Positions 5,000-12,883 of a stretch of DNA of 21,260 nt are shown here, piece after piece. How positions within the stretch are numbered: the stretch's first letter is position 1; each line of letters starts with the position of its first letter. The position numbers were made by a program, and so were the translations under genes. The stretch is taken from positions 1 through 21,260 of IMG/VR virus record IMGVR_UViG_3300011113_000320. One strand, given 5' to 3'. The notes under the pieces were generated by a model, which saw nothing but the letters and a program-made list of their open reading frames with translations, was not told where the DNA came from and ran no database searches. The stretch comes from a virus.

Positions 5000-6628
5000 A
5001 TGAGTGATGTAACACGTGATTTTAGAAACTTCCTATATTTAGTGTGGAAACACCTCAATATTGAGCCTACTCCAGTCCAATACGATATAGCCGATTTCCT
5101 ACAAAAAGCTCCTCGTAGAAGTGTCATACAGGCATTTCGAGGTGCAGGTAAATCTTGGATATGTAGTGCATTTGTTTGTTGGAACTTATTGCGTAACCCA
5201 GATTTAAAATTTTTGGTAGTATCTGCTTCTAAAAACAGAGCCGATGACTTTAGTACATTCACTAAAAGATTAATTAGTGAAATGGATATATTAAAACACC
5301 TTACACCAAAGGCAGACCAAAGAGGCAGCAACGTGTCCTTTGATGTCGCTTTGTCAAAAGCATCTCACGCACCTAGTGTTAAGTCAGTTGGTATAACTGG
5401 ACAGATAACTGGTTCAAGAGCTGATTTTATTATTTCAGATGACTGCGAAAGTTTAAACAACTCATTGACACAAACAATGAGAGACAAGTTATCAGACAGC
5501 GTAAAAGAATTTGAAGCCGTATTATCTCCTAATGGTAAGATTGTATTTCTAGGTACACCCCAGTCAGATATGAGTTTGTATAACGAGTTACCAACTCGTG
5601 GATATGAAGTTCGTATATGGACTGCACGTATGCCAGAAACTAGTAGGATTATTAAATATGGTAATCGGTTAGCTCCGTTTGTTATTAATAGTAAACTAAC
5701 TAGTGGTGAGCCTATAGACCCAAAAAGATTTACTGATATAGACCTAAAAGAAAGAGAAGCCTCTTATGGTCGTTCTGGGTTTGCTTTACAGTTTATGTTG
5801 GACACTACATTGTCCGACAAAGAAAGATTTCCACTTAAATTGTCTGATCTAATAGTTATGGATATAGACAATAAGATAGCACCAGTACAATTAGCTTGGG
5901 CTGGTTCTCAGGAATATGTTTGTGATGATTTACCTAGTGTCGGATTTACAGGAGACAGATACCATAAACCTATGTTTGTGTCTAATGAGTTTGATGCTTA
6001 TAAAGGTTCTGTTATGGCTATTGACCCTAGTGGTAGAGGTAGTGACGAACTAGGTGTTGCTATTATCAAACAACTAAACGGAAACTTATACTTACACACT
6101 TGTAAAGGACTACAAGGTGGTTATAGTGAAGCTAATTTAATAACTCTAGCTAAGATGGCTAGAGACGCTGAAGTTAATATGGTTATTGTTGAGAGTAACT
6201 TTGGTGATGGTATGTTTACACAATTACTTAAACCAGTAATTAATAAATACCACCCAGTCACTATTGAAGAAGTTAATCACTCTAAACAAAAGGAACTAAG
6301 GATAATAGATACCTTAGAACCATTACTTAACCAACACCGACTAATTGTTAGCCCACAGCTTATACGTGCTGACTTTGATACAAACGACCCACACTACCAA
6401 CTGTTCTACCAATTAACTAGAATCACTAAAGATCGTGGTTGTCTTCGTAATGATGACCGACTAGATGCTTTGGCGATAGGTGTAGCCTACTGGATTGAGC
6501 AACTGTCGGTAGACAGTACAAGACAAGTAGAGGATTTTAGAGATAGGAAACTACAAGCTGAGTTAGATAAGTTTATGGAACACGCTGTAGGTAGGAAGAC
6601 AAATGGGGATAATTGGATAAAGATATAA
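5000..6628 (+). CDS. terL: Terminase large subunit (T7 gp19-like)
   Basis: This is the 542-residue DNA-packaging motor, an ATPase that translocates DNA into the prohead and a nuclease that cuts concatemers. The Walker A motif FRGAGKSW is at about residues 46-53, in the variant form typical of T7-type terminases. ADFIISDDCE at 141-150 fits Walker B plus the catalytic acidic residue, and LGTPQS at 184-189 fits the coupling motif. The RNase H-like nuclease has Asp in MAIDPSGRGSDE (D342), Glu in VESNFGDG (E398) and the C-terminal acidic group NDDRLDAL (484-491). T7 gp19 is about 586 residues, so the length is usual. The last residues (NWIKI) precede a non-coding region, as expected for the final late gene of a T7-like genome. 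Confidence 0.95.
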   Translation: MSDVTRDFRNFLYLVWKHLNIEPTPVQYDIADFLQKAPRRSVIQAFRGAGKSWICSAFVCWNLLRNPDLKFLVVSASKNRADDFSTFTKRLISEMDILKHLTPKADQRGSNVSFDVALSKASHAPSVKSVGITGQITGSRADFIISDDCESLNNSLTQTMRDKLSDSVKEFEAVLSPNGKIVFLGTPQSDMSLYNELPTRGYEVRIWTARMPETSRIIKYGNRLAPFVINSKLTSGEPIDPKRFTDIDLKEREASYGRSGFALQFMLDTTLSDKERFPLKLSDLIVMDIDNKIAPVQLAWAGSQEYVCDDLPSVGFTGDRYHKPMFVSNEFDAYKGSVMAIDPSGRGSDELGVAIIKQLNGNLYLHTCKGLQGGYSEANLITLAKMARDAEVNMVIVESNFGDGMFTQLLKPVINKYHPVTIEEVNHSKQKELRIIDTLEPLLNQHRLIVSPQLIRADFDTNDPHYQLFYQLTRITKDRGCLRNDDRLDALAIGVAYWIEQLSVDSTRQVEDFRDRKLQAELDKFMEHAVGRKTNGDNWIKI

Positions 6629-6682
6629 CCAATACCAATAGATACTATTATTAATCTATTATTAGACTACTACTAGTTCCTA

Positions 6683-6723
6683 TATAAGTGTTATATTAGT
6701 TAGTTATAAGTGTTATACTAGTT
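6683..6723 (+). repeat. 19-bp direct repeat, two copies
   Basis: TATAAGTGTTATATTAGTT (6683-6701) and TATAAGTGTTATACTAGTT (6705-6723) differ at one position. The sequence CTAGTTCC also occurs at both edges (6673-6680 and 6718-6725). It lies 55 bp after the terL stop in the putative genome-end region. Confidence 0.7.
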
Positions 6724-6862
6724 CCAATACAAGTAGTTACTAGTAGTATACCAGCTGGTAAATAACCACAATATAGACCTATATGTCTATTTTACCGTGA
6801 TTTTCGGTATTGTCAAATACTTTTTTTAAAAAAATATGAAACGGTATCTCGGTATCTCTCGC

Positions 6863-6945
6863 TGTCAAAAACCCCCCGCAACCCCAAGTTGTACAACTTT
6901 TAATTGTATTTTAAAAAACACGTATAGATTGCGGGTTTTTAGACA
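6863..6945. repeat. Inverted repeat enclosing a perfect 14-bp palindrome
   Basis: The left arm TGTCAAAAACCC-CCC-GCAA (6863-6881) matches, apart from the extra CCC and one inserted A, the complement of the right arm TTGCGGGTTTTTAGACA (6929-6945). Between them lies the palindrome AAGTTGTACAACTT (6886-6899). The arms could form a large stem in either strand's transcript, and the palindrome has the symmetry of a dimeric repressor operator. Confidence 0.55.
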
Positions 6946-6953
6946 ATAACTAA

Positions 6954-6972
6954 AAAAGATAAACTATCTTTT
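6954..6972. terminator. Bidirectional terminator between terL and the minus-strand genes
   Basis: AAAAGATA (6954-6961), loop AAC, TATCTTTT (6965-6972). The 8-bp stem has an A-tract on one side and a T-tract on the other, so it could stop transcription from both the late plus-strand genes and the minus-strand genes that converge here. Confidence 0.5.
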
Positions 6973-7046
6973 ATTTATTATTGATTATTATTGATTGAAA
7001 ATAATTCCGCTTGATTGAGTTCCAAGCCGTATCTGTTTTTTTTATT

Positions 7047-7253
7047 TTAGGTATCTTGATTGAATAACTTATCTAACTTTGATTGTAATTCTAGTTTATG
7101 ATTATCTGGTAGGTACTCAATATAATCCATAAACAACTGATAAGCATTTTTATACAAATCAAAATTAACTGAATTGATACACATTAAACAAAATAAATCG
7201 GGGTTATGATTGCAACTTAAATTGCTAGTATCTGGTTTTAATCTCATACACAT
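7047..7253 (-). CDS. Small Cys/His protein, possible zinc knuckle
   Basis: This 68-residue protein has a Cys/His cluster, CNHNPDLFCLMC at residues 14-25 (C14, H16, C22, C25), plus Cys2. The C-x-H-x5-C-x2-C spacing could bind one zinc ion. The rest is predicted helix with a hydrophobic-aromatic face (LYKNAYQLFMDYIEYL), ending in a charged segment. It is the last gene of the minus-strand set and is followed by a bidirectional hairpin at 6954-6972. I do not recognise the family. Small zinc-binding proteins in phages are often regulators or inhibitors of host enzymes, but nothing here shows which. Confidence 0.55.
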   Translation of the reverse strand: MCMRLKPDTSNLSCNHNPDLFCLMCINSVNFDLYKNAYQLFMDYIEYLPDNHKLELQSKLDKLFNQDT

Positions 7254-7262
7254 AGTAAATCA

Positions 7263-7439
7263 TTATATATTACAATTACAGTTTTCGCCCTCTAAGTAAT
7301 CACTAGAGCAATCGTCGCAAAAACGATAATCGGGCTCATCATCAAGACCGCCTACATTAACAGTAGGAATTGGAACATTTAAACTTTTATAAGTTTTTAA
7401 GTTAGTATCAAATTCAACTAAAAACCTTTTTTTATTCAT
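7263..7439 (-). CDS. Small acidic protein with paired CxxC and CxC
   Basis: ATG at 7439 to TAA at 7263 encodes 58 residues. The N-terminus is basic and beta-like (MNKKRFLVEFDTNLKTYKSL). The C-terminal third is acidic with four Cys, CDDC at 41-44 and CNC at 54-56, in a C-x2-C-x9-C-x-C arrangement that could form a zinc-ribbon-like site. It ends 9 bp before the start of the next minus-strand gene, so the two are probably co-transcribed. The family is unknown. Intact reading frame, neighbouring spacing and the Cys pairing support a real gene. Confidence 0.5.
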   Translation of the reverse strand: MNKKRFLVEFDTNLKTYKSLNVPIPTVNVGGLDDEPDYRFCDDCSSDYLEGENCNCNI

Positions 7440-7470
7440 TTTAATTTTAAAAAACCTATTTAGATTAATT

Positions 7471-7513
7471 CTTAGGGGGTAAGTTAAGACCTTGCCTTGC
7501 CTAAGTACCCCCC
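7471..7513 (-). terminator. GC-rich stem-loop after a minus-strand gene
   Basis: GGGGGTA (7475-7481) pairs with TACCCCC (7506-7512), 7 bp with a 24-nt loop. An alternative pairing, CTTAGG (7471-7476) with CCTAAG (7500-7505), excludes the first. It begins 9 bases after the stop codon at 7522 on the minus strand. There is no strong T-tract. The two competing stems make it look like a terminator or attenuator between 7522-7707 and the next gene. Confidence 0.4.
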
Positions 7514-7521
7514 AAAAATAT

Positions 7522-7707
7522 TTAATCTTGTTTATGTTTATTTTTGTTTAACTCAACTAAATAATAAATATGATTATCTAGTTTCGCCTTTTTAGCTATT
7601 CTGTTGGTAGTAAATACATCTATTGCATAAAACAATAAAAATATAACTACAACACTAAAAGCCAACACTAAAAACAAAATTAAATCATCTAATAGATAGT
7701 TTTCCAT
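7522..7707 (-). CDS. Small single-span membrane protein, 61 residues
   Basis: The N-terminus MENYLLDDLILFLVLAFSVV continues into a hydrophobic segment of about 25 residues (roughly 8-32), which is one membrane helix. A positively charged tail (NRIAKKAKLDNHIYYLVELN, then NKHKQD) follows and would stay in the cytoplasm. The layout matches small phage inner-membrane proteins such as superinfection-exclusion or lysis-control proteins; no family motif is visible. It lies 12 bp downstream of the 63-residue gene on the same strand. Confidence 0.55.
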   Translation of the reverse strand: MENYLLDDLILFLVLAFSVVVIFLLFYAIDVFTTNRIAKKAKLDNHIYYLVELNKNKHKQD

Positions 7708-7719
7708 TTTTGTATTTAG

Positions 7720-7911
7720 TTAGTTTAAAGTTTTAAACTTGCTTTCCAATTCCATTAAATAGAATTTAGCAAATTTAGTTATTACCATTTTATTACCGAC
7801 TTTGAAATAAGGCGATTTAAGTATCAAAGCCGTAAAGTACTTATTTCTAAAATTATTAACCTTTGATACAGTTAAATGTCTTTTATCTTTGTTGGTAGTC
7901 ATCATTAACAT
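7720..7911 (-). CDS. Small basic hypothetical protein, 63 residues
   Basis: The product starts MLMMTTNKDKRHLTVSKVNN; several Met codons (residues 1, 3 and 4) are possible starts. The protein is basic, with alternating aromatic and Lys residues (NKYFTALILKSPYFKVGNKM) and a C-terminal helix (FAKFYLMELESKFK). No membrane helix, Cys cluster or helix-turn-helix is evident. It is the first gene of the distal minus-strand group, with 386 bases of non-coding DNA upstream that probably contains its promoter. Confidence 0.5.
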   Translation of the reverse strand: MLMMTTNKDKRHLTVSKVNNFRNKYFTALILKSPYFKVGNKMVITKFAKFYLMELESKFKTLN

Positions 7912-8227
7912 ATTAAATAAACTAATATCATAACTTTAAAATAAAATAAACTATTAATTAAAATTAATTTTACATCAGGGGGGAACGGTAGTCAGCAAGG
8001 TTTATTGTCTACCATTACAAGTTAAATTAACTTTAATTTTATTAGTATTAAAACGGGTTAAGTCAATTCTATTGCACACGGGGTATGATACCTAGTAGTT
8101 AGCCCGTAAATTATCCTATATTTATTCACTATCATAAACGGGTTAAATGACTAAACCTACCTAGTGTTGCTACCTGTGTTTAAAACTAGATATAGTTATT
8201 AAATCAATTTTAAGTAATTTTTAATTA

Positions 8228-8250
8228 AAAAAGTCTTATTTAAAAGACCT
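8228..8250 (-). terminator. Rho-independent-type terminator of the amidoligase operon
   Basis: Read on the minus strand, GTCTT, loop TTAAAT, AAGAC is followed directly by TTTTTT. The stem is short (5 bp), but the T-run is complete. It lies about 50 bases after the amidoligase stop codon. Confidence 0.55.
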
Positions 8251-8275
8251 TAGAGCATCAAAGAAATTATTTAAC

Positions 8276-8290
8276 GGGGCTAAGTACCCC
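8276..8290 (-). terminator. GGGG/CCCC hairpin directly after the amidoligase gene
   Basis: On the minus strand, GGGG-TACTTAG-CCCC follows the stop codon by 7 bases. The string CTAAGTACCCC (plus strand, 8280-8290) recurs at 7501-7511, also just after a minus-strand stop codon. It is probably a 3' mRNA stabiliser or the first of two tandem terminators. Confidence 0.45.
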
Positions 8291-8297
8291 AAAAATT

Positions 8298-10229
8298 TTA
8301 GTTTTTAGATTGTCTAGGTTTTCTAACTTTTGCTAATTTAATATTTTCTAATAATTCAAATTTAACTGGTTTATAATTAATATTTCTTTTTTCTAAACTT
8401 TTAACAAATCCATAGCCGTTCTTTAAATTCCTAAAATCTCTTAAACCATTTTTAACAATCTCAACTTGATTAAAAGCATATAAAAAAGGATATATCTTTT
8501 TATTTTCATCTACAAATTGAATAAATTTTACGTAATCGTTATGAGACACGGGGCGATTTTTTACAAAATTAATTAAACAATCTGTAAACTCTACGTATCT
8601 ATTTAAAACATCAAATCTTATATTGCCTTTAAATATTCTTAGTTCAACTGTACTTTTTTTAGATAAATTAACCGCCGAATATTTTGCCGAATAAATTAAA
8701 TTGGGGTAGTTTTTAAAATAGCTATCTAATTCCAACACATTTTTATTCTTGAAAATCGCCTCGCAATAGTGATTGTTAAAAAATTCCCGCCCCGCAATTC
8801 TACTGATATAATTAAAATTCATTTCATTATTAATAAATTCAACTATTCTTAAAATTTGTAATTTAGTTAGTGTGTCTCTACTAATATGAATATGAACACC
8901 AGTCTCTTGTCTTGAATAACTACCTAAATAATCTTTAATATTATTATAAAAATTATAAAACAAATCAGTATTTTTTATATAATTAAATGACATAGCCGTT
9001 GATACAATTTCAATTCCATTTGTACCAATACTACCATCACTTTTACATAGTGCTTGACCTCTTAAATAATTCTCCTCTAAATCTTTTATAATTGTAGGCG
9101 GGGCTTTGTCTTGGATTGAAAATGTTTCAATTTCAATACCGAACATTTGCGTTGTTTTTCTGTTTTCATCTAAAAAATATAACTTATCCAAAACTTTTAA
9201 GACATCATCATAGCAACTACGTAGTTTATTATTATTACTTTTAAACTTAGTTAAATAATTGGTAGTTTTGAAATAACTATCATCAGAAAAAATAGCCGTA
9301 TTTAAAAACTTAATATATTTAATTTCTGGTACTGGTTTTAAATTATCTATTACATCTGTTAAATCTAATTTTAAGAAAAAATTACTTGAATACGGTACTA
9401 ACTGTTTTTCTACATTTGAGACATAATATTTATAAACGTAGTTTTGCTCATCAAATTTATAAAATCTTTTTAAATTAAATTTATTATCATCTTTAAATTT
9501 TTCAAAAGCATTTGAACGATTATCAGTATTATAGAAACTTATTAAATTATTTTTATGGAAATAAAAACCAGTTAAACAGCATTTATAAACATTACAGTTT
9601 TTAAGAGTATCAAAGTTTAAATCTTTTAATAAATTTTCTACATCATTTAAAATCAATTTAAATATGTCTAAACAATTTTGATGATTATTTAAAAACGACA
9701 AATAAAATTTATGATTAAAACCTTGAATACCTTTTGTTAATTTATAATCAGAAATAAAAAGGCAATCTAATAAACTTAAATTATTAACGGATTTACTTTG
9801 TAAGTATCTTTGAAAATCGTTTGTTTGATACTGAAAAAAACAACTTTGAAAACTTGAATTGTAATTTCTTAACCCGTCGGAATTGGGCAATTGACTGAAA
9901 AATCCTCTTAAAATTATGCTATTAATATAATCCGATAAACTTACAGATACTTTATAATTTTTATTTCTTTGGGTACATATTTCATTAATGCTAATAATAT
10001 CATCATCATCTTTAAAATTATCAAAAAATAATTGACGACCGTCGTTTTTATAAGAGTGTAAAGCATTATAAAAATCTGTTGTATTTATATCCGTAAAAAT
10101 ATCGGAATAGTTATTTTTTAAATAATAGTTTTTCTCATTTTTCAAATATCTTAAATTACTTAAAATATACTTATCTAGTTTTAATCTGTTATACTTATCA
10201 ATTAAGTTTATATCTTTATTAATACTCAT
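8298..10229 (-). CDS. Amidoligase (glutamine-synthetase fold, Amidoligase_2-like), 643 residues
   Basis: The C-terminal half carries the ordered motifs of GS-fold COOH-NH2 ligases: GIEIET (364-369), KSDGSIGTNGIEIVS (396-410), GVHIHIS (444-450), ISRIAGRE (475-482), KYSAVNLS (516-523) and TVELRIFKG (527-535). The Glu, His and Arg residues in these motifs are those expected to hold metal-ATP and activate a carboxylate. Such enzymes form amide bonds using ATP and an amine or ammonia; the substrate here is unknown. About 350 residues precede the domain; this part is Asn/Lys/Tyr/Phe-rich, has Cys clusters (CNVYKCC, 212-218) and matches nothing I recognise. Its start overlaps the end of the amidotransferase gene by 11 bp, so the two are almost certainly co-translated and probably work together. 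Terminator-like hairpins follow the stop. Confidence 0.85.
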   Translation of the reverse strand: MSINKDINLIDKYNRLKLDKYILSNLRYLKNEKNYYLKNNYSDIFTDINTTDFYNALHSYKNDGRQLFFDNFKDDDDIISINEICTQRNKNYKVSVSLSDYINSIILRGFFSQLPNSDGLRNYNSSFQSCFFQYQTNDFQRYLQSKSVNNLSLLDCLFISDYKLTKGIQGFNHKFYLSFLNNHQNCLDIFKLILNDVENLLKDLNFDTLKNCNVYKCCLTGFYFHKNNLISFYNTDNRSNAFEKFKDDNKFNLKRFYKFDEQNYVYKYYVSNVEKQLVPYSSNFFLKLDLTDVIDNLKPVPEIKYIKFLNTAIFSDDSYFKTTNYLTKFKSNNNKLRSCYDDVLKVLDKLYFLDENRKTTQMFGIEIETFSIQDKAPPTIIKDLEENYLRGQALCKSDGSIGTNGIEIVSTAMSFNYIKNTDLFYNFYNNIKDYLGSYSRQETGVHIHISRDTLTKLQILRIVEFINNEMNFNYISRIAGREFFNNHYCEAIFKNKNVLELDSYFKNYPNLIYSAKYSAVNLSKKSTVELRIFKGNIRFDVLNRYVEFTDCLINFVKNRPVSHNDYVKFIQFVDENKKIYPFLYAFNQVEIVKNGLRDFRNLKNGYGFVKSLEKRNINYKPVKFELLENIKLAKVRKPRQSKN

Positions 10230-11196
10230 AATTATATTTTAAATCATCAACTTGAATATCATTGTCGTTTATCTCATCTAAGATTTTTTTATCGTCTCTT
10301 AAATCTGTTATTAAATCGGCAATTTGTTTATGATTTAACTTTTTAATAGTTTTAAAAATTTCTTTGTTTGTACCGTTATCAAATATATGAGACAAATTCT
10401 GATAATTTAAATAGGTATTATTTTTTTTATTTTTCTTAGCTTGTTTTTTAAACAATGCTCTTTTTAATAAATCTTGTTTATAAGTTTTATCACTATCATA
10501 GTACGAATTTGAATAGTAATCATCATCAGCATTATTAAAATTATAATAATTATTTGAATCATAACTTTTAAAATTATAATCATTTAAATTTGAATTTCTT
10601 GAATAAGTAATTGTACTTTCATAATCTTGTATTGAATATGTTTGCGATACTTTTAAATTTTTATATTCCGACCAATCGCCCAAAAATTCAAAATTATTAT
10701 TTAAACTGTTTAACAATAAAACTCTTGAATTGGTTTCACTATTAATTATTTTGTTTAAAGATTTAATAAAACTTTCATTGAAAATTAAATCGGGTTTATT
10801 CTTAACTATTGGTTTTAAAATATATCTACTAAAAAAATAAGTATCAGATTTTTTATTATCTAAAATTGGGGCGGGTAATAACGGGCTATTGTGCATTAAA
10901 TACAAATCAAAATTATCGCCTAACTTTTTATTTAAAATACAAAACGGGTGGCTATTAAAATTATTTTTGTCGCCTTGCGTTGCAAATCTAAAATGCAAAG
11001 CAATTTGATTTGTATTTTTTGCGTGTTTGTTAAAACATTTTAAAACTGATTTAAATTTTTTAGGTAAGAATTTTTCTGTTATAATTTTATTATTTTTAGA
11101 ATACATTAACCCAAAACCATCTTTGTTGCCGTTGTATGCTTTTAATAAAATTTTGTTGGTTATGTCTTCGGGCTTACCAACTATAATAATGCACAT
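10219..11196 (-). CDS. Class II glutamine amidotransferase (Ntn hydrolase), 325 residues
   Basis: Cys2 in MCIIIVGKPED would become the N-terminal nucleophile after Met removal, as in all class II glutaminases. Further family motifs are KDGFGLMY (25-32), HFRFATQG (68-75, with the glutamine-binding Arg), NSHPF (81-85), MHNSPL (101-106, containing the oxyanion-hole Asn) and SDTYFFSRYIL (117-127). The enzyme should hydrolyse glutamine to glutamate and ammonia. The position after the conserved Asn is Ser (HNS) rather than the usual Gly. Residues about 190-235 are a low-complexity Asn/Asp/Tyr stretch, followed by a Lys-rich helical tail, so the C-terminal third is not a known domain. It is the first gene of the operon, and the amidoligase start overlaps its end. 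Ammonia delivery to that ligase is the obvious inferred role. Confidence 0.85.
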   Translation of the reverse strand: MCIIIVGKPEDITNKILLKAYNGNKDGFGLMYSKNNKIITEKFLPKKFKSVLKCFNKHAKNTNQIALHFRFATQGDKNNFNSHPFCILNKKLGDNFDLYLMHNSPLLPAPILDNKKSDTYFFSRYILKPIVKNKPDLIFNESFIKSLNKIINSETNSRVLLLNSLNNNFEFLGDWSEYKNLKVSQTYSIQDYESTITYSRNSNLNDYNFKSYDSNNYYNFNNADDDYYSNSYYDSDKTYKQDLLKRALFKKQAKKNKKNNTYLNYQNLSHIFDNGTNKEIFKTIKKLNHKQIADLITDLRDDKKILDEINDNDIQVDDLKYNYEY

Positions 11197-11439
11197 TTTA
11201 AATCTTAATCGCCTAAGTTAATTTTTTTTATCTACCTAACCCGAATATATAGACTAATTTTAAATAAATTAAAAGCATAAAAGACTACAAAATAATTTAC
11301 AATTAACACTTGTAATTACTATTTACTGGTATTATATACCTACTATTAGTATGGTGTTGCAAAAATACCACATACAACGGGTAGTATTATAAAACATCTT
11401 AAAAGGTTTTAACTTAACTAAACACGGGGGGTTTTAAAT
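11197..11439. promoter_or_regulatory. Divergent intergenic region between the amidotransferase and a small plus-strand gene
   Basis: The two genes are transcribed away from each other, so promoters for both strands must lie here or nearby. On the plus strand TTGTAA (11310-11315) and TATATA (11333-11338) are 17 bases apart, a plausible sigma70-type pair. GGTAT-TAT-ATACC (11328-11340) overlaps that -10 box and could be an operator. AACGGGTAG near 11377 is a near match of the ACGGGTTA element. No minus-strand promoter stands out. Confidence 0.4.
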
Positions 11440-11598
11440 TTGAAAAATATTTTTAATCATTTTATTGGTACATTTTTAATAATTTTATTTTGTACTGTTT
11501 TAATAACAGCTATTGCAAACATAAATAATTTTTTAATTTTTTTAGTGTTAATATTATTATTAATACCTATTGTTTATATTCTAGGTTATTGCGATTAA
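11440..11598 (+). CDS. Small two-helix membrane protein with TTG start, 52 residues
   Basis: The frame opens after an upstream stop, so the TTG at 11440 is the only usable start; GGGGGG at 11426-11431 sits 8 bases before it and can act as a ribosome-binding site. The product has two membrane helices, about residues 8-26 (FIGTFLIILFCTVLITAIA) and 31-49 (FLIFLVLILLLIPIVYILG), joined by NINN, and ends GYCD. It resembles small phage membrane proteins such as holins, antiholins or exclusion proteins, but has no family motif. Its place in the early region, before the integrase, favours a host-takeover or lysogeny-related role over lysis; that is inference. Confidence 0.5.
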   Translation: MKNIFNHFIGTFLIILFCTVLITAIANINNFLIFLVLILLLIPIVYILGYCD

Positions 11599-11660
11599 AA
11601 CAGCTCCAATACAACGACAAGTTGAATATCAAAAAAACTTTATATAACATAATAATTTAA

Positions 11661-11717
11661 TACGGGTTAAATAGGTTAGTGAAGGGTAGGCGGGGAAGGT
11701 AAGATATATAACCCGTA
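11661..11717. repeat. Inverted 9-bp repeat TACGGGTTA / TAACCCGTA
   Basis: Perfect arms at 11661-11669 and 11709-11717 are separated by 39 bases that include a G-rich stretch (GTAGGCGGGGAAGG). A third, direct copy lies at 11747-11755. The element belongs to the ACGGGTTA set found also at 8.05-8.15 kb and in the RNA polymerase gene. Confidence 0.65.
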
Positions 11718-11772
11718 ATTAAAAAAGATTTTATAAGGTTAATTTATACGGGTTAAGTCTATTTTGCTGGTG

Positions 11773-11835
11773 TACGGACTTTACTAACTTTACGGACTTT
11801 ACGGACTTTACTAACTTTACGGACTTTACGGACTT
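11773..11835 (+). repeat. Seven tandem 9-bp units with a 27-bp higher-order period
   Basis: The units are TACGGACTT (A) and TACTAACTT (B) in the order A B A A B A A without gaps. The first 27 bases (11773-11799) are repeated exactly at 11800-11826, followed by one more A unit; the next unit decays to TATGAATAT. The array is 208 bp upstream of the integrase start. Regular 9-bp spacing suggests protein binding as in integrase arm sites, iterons or operators. Confidence 0.85.
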
Positions 11836-11921
11836 TATGAATATTAACTTTTTAAAATTTATTTTTTTACAACCTATGATTTTACAACTTAAAATTGAAA
11901 AATAAAAATTTCACTATCATA

Positions 11922-11966
11922 AGTTACAATTGCGTTTTGATTAAGAGTTACAATTGCGTTTTAATT
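11922..11966 (+). repeat. 24-bp direct tandem repeat
   Basis: AGTTACAATTGCGTTTTGAT plus TAAG (11922-11945) is followed at once by a second copy (11946-11966) that matches at 20 of its 21 bases. Each copy contains the palindrome CAATTG. The second copy ends 24 bases before the integrase -35 box, so it may be an operator. Confidence 0.75.
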
Positions 11967-11990
11967 TTTAATTTTATTTTTTAAAAAGAC

Positions 11991-12019
11991 TTGACTTGTT
12001 TTACAAAAAGAATTATATG
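11991..12019 (+). promoter_or_regulatory. Putative sigma70 promoter of the integrase
   Basis: TTGACT (11991-11996) matches five of six -35 bases, and TATATG (12014-12019) is a fair -10 box after 17 bases. A strong Shine-Dalgarno, GGGAGG (12033-12038), follows downstream. The integrase is therefore probably transcribed by host RNA polymerase immediately after infection or from the prophage. Confidence 0.5.
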
Positions 12020-12043
12020 TAAGTAAATTATCGGGAGGACATA

Positions 12044-12883
12044 GTGCAAAATAAAAATATCACTACATCAGAACTACTACAGTTAGTAATTTTAAGAGAA
12101 TGGTCTACTCAAAAAAGTGGAGTAGCTAGTGCCAAGAACGCAGAAGTGTTTATGAATTGGTACGGTGCAGATAAACCATTTAAAGATTTAACTACTGACA
12201 TACTTCGTAATTTTAAATTTTATTGTAAAGATAAATTAAAATACAAAGCAGCTACAATTAATAGGAAGTTAGCGTCAGTATCTAAATTAATAACATATTC
12301 ACGGGGTATGGGCGGGTTTACTTTTAAATGGGGTATACCTATGGTTGAATACGAAACTGAGAATAATCAACGTAAATTCATATTTACTGATACAATAGAA
12401 AAAGAACTATTGCAAACAAGCACGAATTGTGGTTATAATGAACTTAATGATTTGTGGATTTGTTTAATAGAAACTGGTTGTCGTGTTTCTGAGTTATTAA
12501 ACTTAACGTGGGCTAACATTGAAAATGAATTTCTTTGTTTAAAAGATACTAAGAACGGGGACACTAGGTTTGTTCCTATATTTGACAAAGTTAAAAACAT
12601 TTTTAAAAAAAGAAAACAACTAAATTTAGTTAGTCCGTTTCCTTACAAACTGCACGTGGTAGAAAACAGTTGGTCAATGATACGTAAAAAGATGAATATG
12701 CAAAATGAAAAAGATTTTGTTATACACTCATTTAGACACACTTACATTACTAGACTACTTAAACGTAGGATAGGTATAGAAGTTGTACAAAAGGTTGTTG
12801 GACACCGAGATATACGAATGACTCAAAGGTATAATCACCCAACAAAAGATGATTTAAGAGAAGCACTAAAGGTACAGATGTGA
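12044..12883 (+). CDS. int: Tyrosine-family integrase
   Basis: This 279-residue site-specific recombinase starts at GTG, 5 bases after GGAGG, the clearest ribosome-binding site in the window. All catalytic residues are visible: Arg147 in ETGCRVSELLNLTW, Lys170 in KDTKNGDTR, His228 and Arg231 in IHSFRHTY, His254 in VVGHRDIRMT and the nucleophile Tyr263 in QRYNHPT. Residues about 10-85 form the SAM-like core-binding domain (LRNFKFYCKDKLKYKAATIN). There is no large separate N-terminal arm-binding domain, so arm-site binding would have to come from the first 10-20 residues or from a partner protein. It would integrate the phage genome into the host chromosome. Location directly upstream of the RNA polymerase is the arrangement described for temperate pelagiphages. 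Confidence 0.93.
   Translation: MQNKNITTSELLQLVILREWSTQKSGVASAKNAEVFMNWYGADKPFKDLTTDILRNFKFYCKDKLKYKAATINRKLASVSKLITYSRGMGGFTFKWGIPMVEYETENNQRKFIFTDTIEKELLQTSTNCGYNELNDLWICLIETGCRVSELLNLTWANIENEFLCLKDTKNGDTRFVPIFDKVKNIFKKRKQLNLVSPFPYKLHVVENSWSMIRKKMNMQNEKDFVIHSFRHTYITRLLKRRIGIEVVQKVVGHRDIRMTQRYNHPTKDDLREALKVQM

Follow-up and report, generated by a model that had tools for sequence, protein, structure and literature searches.

The window analysed here (21,260 bp) corresponds to an entire IMG/VR record and represents a genome fragment. It contains the terminal part of the structural gene region, TerL (5000-6628; phrog_38, E 2e-116), a block of minus-strand genes (7047-11196), the integrase gene int (12044-12883), a T7-type RNA polymerase gene (from 13064) and replication genes. 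The phage is T7-like and is related to int-bearing pelagiphages. Two genes of the minus-strand block, located between TerL and int, are adjacent and co-directional in the window, and adjacent in the clade described below. The first (10219-11196, minus strand) encodes a class-II (Ntn) glutamine amidotransferase (GATase) of 325 residues, and the second (8298-10229, minus strand) a GS-fold carboxylate-amine ligase (amidoligase) of 643 residues. The stop of the GATase gene and the start of the amidoligase gene overlap by 11 bp (ATGAGTATTAA, 10219-10229, minus strand), and this arrangement may couple the translation of the two proteins. The 11-bp overlap is also found in contigs L004, L005, L007, L009 and L015. 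An assembly chimera is rejected as the source of the pair, because both genes recur with the identical overlap in independent contigs. A sequence-only reading had described both open reading frames with their overlap and their motifs, and had placed the pair between terL and int, opposite to lytic transcription; the annotation confirms this description.

The GATase is made up of a glutaminase domain (residues ~1-190), a low-complexity linker (~190-250) and a conserved helical C-terminus (~255-315). It has the features of class-II enzymes, with a Cys residue after the initiator Met and the R-x-x-T-x-G, HN(G) and SD(T) motifs, and the motifs named in the sequence-only reading (Cys2, HFRFATQG and MHN) are all present. 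Residues C2, R70, T73, G75, H102, N103 and D118 are invariant in 13 sequences, including that of MEP402, and S117-D118-T119 is likewise invariant among GATases with ~40% identity. The single-sequence score against PF13230 (GATase_4) is under the curated cut-off (13.8 bits vs 23), and 13 of 16 relatives match PF13230/PF13522 weakly, with a best E of 0.0015. A profile search of the PDB finds GFAT/GlmS (E 2e-4). The predicted structure, with a mean pLDDT of only 48, aligns with EgtC and GlmS (Z 7.0, 4.0 Å over 151 residues). The HN motif reads MHNSP throughout the clade (window 10881-10895, GATase residues 101-105), in place of the HNG that is usual in the oxyanion hole of class-II GATases. The canonical oxyanion Gly is Ser in the whole clade; its main-chain NH would remain after this replacement.

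The catalytic domain of the amidoligase covers residues ~354-592, and is preceded by an N-terminal region of ~350 residues for which the model has low confidence. The GIEIE, DGS, GVHIHIS and VELRIF motifs named earlier are found in this protein, and their general forms (G-x-E-x-E, K-x-D-x-S, G-x-H-x-H and T-(V/I/L)-E-x-R-x-F) are invariant in 15 sequences. Ligases down to ~25% identity keep G364, E366, E368, K396, D398, S400, E407, H446, H448, R481, N521, T527, E529 and R531. The single-sequence score against Amidoligase_2 (PF12224) is again under the Pfam cut-off (18.6 bits vs 22, E 0.0018), and the same model is matched by all 19 aligned members (best E 3.5e-6). UniProt already holds a 39% identical 'Amidoligase enzyme' from an uncultured phage. 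A PDB sequence search with the ligase gave no relevant match. Residues 354-634 of the predicted structure match YbdK (Z 11.4, 5.0 Å, 233 residues) and glutamine synthetases (Z ~10), and the Foldseek search with the model gave E 8.5e-5; the mean pLDDT is 52, with residues 360-590 mostly at ~60-85. The catalytic domain thus has the GS/GCS fold, which it shares with YbdK and the glutamine synthetases (PDB 1r8g, 1tt4) at an identity of ~10%. YbdK works without a dedicated glutaminase.

Because the single-sequence Pfam scores are below the cut-offs, the enzyme assignment is based on invariant motifs together with profile matches and fold. These make it highly probable that the pair is a working glutaminase and GS-fold ligase at the biochemical level, in line with the expectation in the sequence-only reading of an amide-forming pair with known counterparts in other phages. 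The catalytic residues align in distant relatives of both proteins (~25% identity for the ligase and ~40% for the GATase). It could be imagined that only the folds are kept and that the proteins are binders or inhibitors without catalysis, a proposal that would accommodate the change from HNG to HNS(P) and the fast evolution of the ligase N-terminal region (see below). However, no known catalytic motif has been lost, even though the rest of the ligase diverges to ~25% identity, and we regard a loss of catalysis as very unlikely.

Relatives of the window were gathered from IMG/VR, which was scanned with TerL, and the clade was defined by TerL sequences at least 74% identical. Clade contigs that extend at least 1.35 kb past TerL were testable (n=22), and more distant contigs with at least 3 kb there (TerL identity of at most ~60%) served as the outgroup (n=14). 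The pair, or part of it, follows TerL in 22 of the 22 testable contigs. Its genes are on the minus strand in 21 of them; the exception is L123, where the plus strand encodes the GATase. The pair is found at the locus after TerL in none of the 14 distant outgroup contigs, and Pelagibacter elements (TerL ~50%) have rightward small genes at the corresponding place. The GATase and ligase distances correlate with those of TerL (Spearman 0.78 and 0.64, respectively; 0 of 2000 permutations). Judged from these contigs, the pair is a fixed function of the int-bearing T7-like clade and not sporadic cargo.

This distribution bears on the proposal, made from the sequence alone, of a cargo system possibly expressed from the prophage. 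As a lysogenic-conversion gene set (moron), the prophage-expressed pair would alter the host surface and block superinfection. The location next to int and opposite to the lytic genes is consistent with such a role, as is the GC content of 22-23% in the pair block vs 28-37% in the core genes, and PMC10580990, citing Iyer et al. 2009, suggests wall modification against superinfection for such pairs in other phages. On the other hand, cargo would not be expected in every testable clade contig, at distances that track TerL. Moreover, no integrated clade member was found among the GTDB representatives scanned with the TerL alignment, where the only match was a phage contig, or among the sampled Pelagibacterales (297) and Methylophilaceae (187), collections that are incomplete. 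The pair of MEP402 is located just before the replication genes, in a genome with no annotated integrase. The presence of an integrase gene does not by itself demonstrate lysogeny, and for T7-like cyanophages integration without lysogeny is reported in PMC8776855. A moron is therefore unlikely, and the cargo and prophage-expression claims are not upheld.

The single GTDB match, L046 (PBQF01000068), is a 16-kb clade phage contig with the pair that is binned in a 'Parcubacteria' MAG, probably by a binning error. The nearest annotated TerL relatives are a Methylovorus element (61%) and Pelagibacter phages (~50-60%), and for this reason neither host is assigned. A search for the amidoligase in the Pelagibacterales genomes, run without a positive control, gave 0 of 297.

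Both genes of the pair are under purifying selection, as judged by dN/dS. Against the nearest relatives, the values are 0.07-0.13 for the GATase, 0.14-0.19 for the catalytic part of the ligase, 0.31-0.37 for its N-terminal 350 residues, and 0.04-0.07 for TerL; values for more distant pairs are rough, with synonymous sites near saturation. Phages with 91% TerL identity have ligases that are only 41-49% identical. By these measures the ligase is retained yet fast-evolving, mostly in its N-terminal part.

Many phages have amidoligase-GATase pairs, with annotations that go back more than a decade, and we know of no substrate for any of them. In the OM43 phages MEP401 and MEP402, an amidoligase (PF12224) and a GATase (PF13522) have been annotated (PMC10580990). 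As in the window, the two genes are adjacent and overlapping, the catalytic motifs are the same, and no further ligase partners are annotated nearby. In comparison to the window, however, the ligase precedes the GATase, two CxxC motifs stand before the ligase domain, the GATase has the HNG motif, and the genes are on the plus strand before the primase gene; overall identity to the window pair is ~20%. Podoviridae sp. ctgrD200 (MW202733), with the order int-amidoligase-GATase-RNA polymerase, also has the pair near the int and RNA polymerase genes of a T7-like phage, but on the int strand and with the ligase first, and its ligase has 28% identity over 181 residues. In Mycobacterium phage Marvin, gp105-gp106 are likewise an adjacent ligase and class-II GATase, opposite to the preceding genes and at a genome end. 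The Marvin ligase differs in its length (453 residues) and in having a CxxC-rich N-terminus, with ~25% identity in the ligase domain. The CxxC motifs of MEP402 and Marvin are absent from the window pair. The two genes are adjacent in Acinetobacter phage 313 as well. In phages of C. difficile and Microcoleus, the ligase is present but no recognisable GATase is next to it.

The LUZ24-like phages (UFV-P2, tf) have a cluster with a COOH-NH2 ligase, Amidoligase_2, a GATase, ATP-grasp and a GGCT-like protein (PMC3890496). An Amidoligase_2 and a class-II GATase are thus shared with the window, and are in one early cluster there. That cluster is a larger pathway with ATP-grasp and further ligases, whereas only two enzymes are present here. 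The type of pair is therefore already known. What is new is its clade-wide fixation, the reversed gene order, the fast-evolving N-terminus of 350 residues, and HNS(P) in place of HNG.

The position of the pair in the complete genome was approached through the contig ends. Of the 39 clade contigs with a true right contig end, 19 stop 344-975 bp past TerL. This clustering exceeds a uniform null (maximum 16 in 500 trials), although this null model is a simple one and there is some dependence among the contigs. L012 starts at the matching place, inside the 68-residue ORF at 7047-7253. In the int-bearing pelagiphage HTVC120P, TerL is close to the right genome end, which follows it by 998 bp, and int is close to the left one. 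Because the contig ends cluster after TerL, the likeliest arrangement has the genome terminus there, with the pair at the left end of the linear genome and divergent from the int-RNA polymerase genes. In T7, the left genome end enters the host first. If this phage works like T7, the position suggests that the pair would be among the early-entering genes.

A candidate sigma-70-like promoter (TTGCAA, 18 bp, TATATA; minus strand, near 11320-11355) was picked out by eye in a block at 11300-11370 that can be aligned between the window, L013, L012 and partly L015; in a promoter scan this candidate is not above chance. The pair had also been credited with its own terminator-like hairpins. Only one terminator-like site was observed, vs 1.0 expected in shuffled sequences, which is not above chance, and it is located at 7027-7009, past the last small minus-strand ORF and not past the pair. 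A tRNA search for an att context gave none, no tRNA T-arm-like motif is above chance, and attP was not found. There is no match in Rfam or to defence-system profiles, and no NCBIfam family is above the cut-off.

Taken together, we infer a two-protein, glutamine-dependent amide synthetase that probably has a host-side target and is probably made early, a reading to which we give a probability of roughly 0.6. Removal of Met would expose the GATase Cys, and glutamine would be split to release ammonia. The GS-fold ligase would activate a carboxylate with ATP, presumably as an acyl phosphate, and the ammonia would be joined to it to give a primary amide. The two proteins may form a complex through which ammonia is transferred. 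Expression of the pair is probably early, on a transcript that runs leftward at the left end of the genome. The target would be a carboxylate on the host side, belonging to a host protein or to a peptide of the envelope or wall. It would vary between hosts, and the N-terminal region of the ligase, with its fast evolution, may be what recognises it.

We favour a target on the host side because evolution is fast in the ligase and not in the phage structural genes. Such a target is also favoured because the pair has a probable early position, and is beside replication genes in MEP402, where no phage-DNA modification genes accompany it. This last point argues against DNA or nucleotide hypermodification, in which the ligase would amidate a modified base. 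Some phage base-modification pathways do include GATase-like and ligase steps. However, the complete MEP402 genome has no annotated base-modifying genes except ribonucleotide reductase, and none was recognised in the window, itself a partial genome, which leaves hypermodification highly improbable. Among host homologues and neighbouring genes, none points to a target.

Should the proposed host-directed synthetase make an amide of the wall or of a protein early in infection, this would be a new mode of host remodelling by phages. A clade with the pair in every testable member, two genes and one fast part is also tractable for target finding. A more specific version, which we offer tentatively and consider rather improbable, is an early clade-defining enzyme that amidates a rapidly co-evolving host target in defence or the envelope. 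The first 350 residues of the ligase would then serve as a substrate-recognition module in an arms race. If true, such amidation would add a new chemistry to the ways in which phages take over their hosts.

Four small ORFs follow the pair on the minus strand. The first (7720-7911, 63 residues) has a dN/dS of 0.21-0.27 among close relatives and homologues in L015 and L028. The second (7522-7707, 61 residues) has a hydrophobic N-terminal stretch, a dN/dS of 0.09-0.12, and homologues in L015 and L026. The other two contain Cys residues: a 58-residue ORF (7263-7439; dN/dS 0.26-0.29, close relatives only) and the 68-residue ORF near the probable terminus (7047-7253; dN/dS 0.12-0.21, close relatives). 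Their conservation and their location on the same strand after the pair would suit a pathway that makes an inhibitor or signal by amidation of a metabolite or of a small phage peptide, which may be the product of a downstream ORF. Marine-type relatives with a different small gene at the ligase end are also compatible with it. However, the small ORFs are not kept across the whole clade and are rejected as the peptide substrate for this reason, so that such a pathway appears doubtful.

In some relatives, a gene of ~70 residues is found at the 3' end of the ligase gene (L097:4706-4927, L112:3978-4199 and L115:7256-7468). It has a conserved VQ(L/M)SFPFPE motif that resembles clamp-binding peptides.

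Several repeat elements are located around the pair. At 8053-8146 and 11662-11756, exactly flanking it, ACGGGTTAA is followed by ~46 bp, an inverted copy, ~40 bp and ACGGGTTAA again. The spacing of this element is kept in the close relatives L013, L012 and L015, and the intervening sequence is not; hairpins at the element show no clear stability (z +1.3 to -1.8). The region 6629-12043 (24% GC) has G4/C4 runs at ~10 times and CGGG/CCCG at ~12 times the expectation from base composition, with a similar but weaker excess in several relatives. Upstream of int, tandem 9-bp units (TTTACGGAC/TTTACTAAC) at 11764-11850 are absent from the aligned relatives. The conserved block before int (11922-12020) contains two direct repeats of AGTTACAATTGCGTTTTGATT 24 bp apart, followed by TTGACT-17 bp-TATATG, and has the appearance of an operator-promoter region for the rightward early genes.
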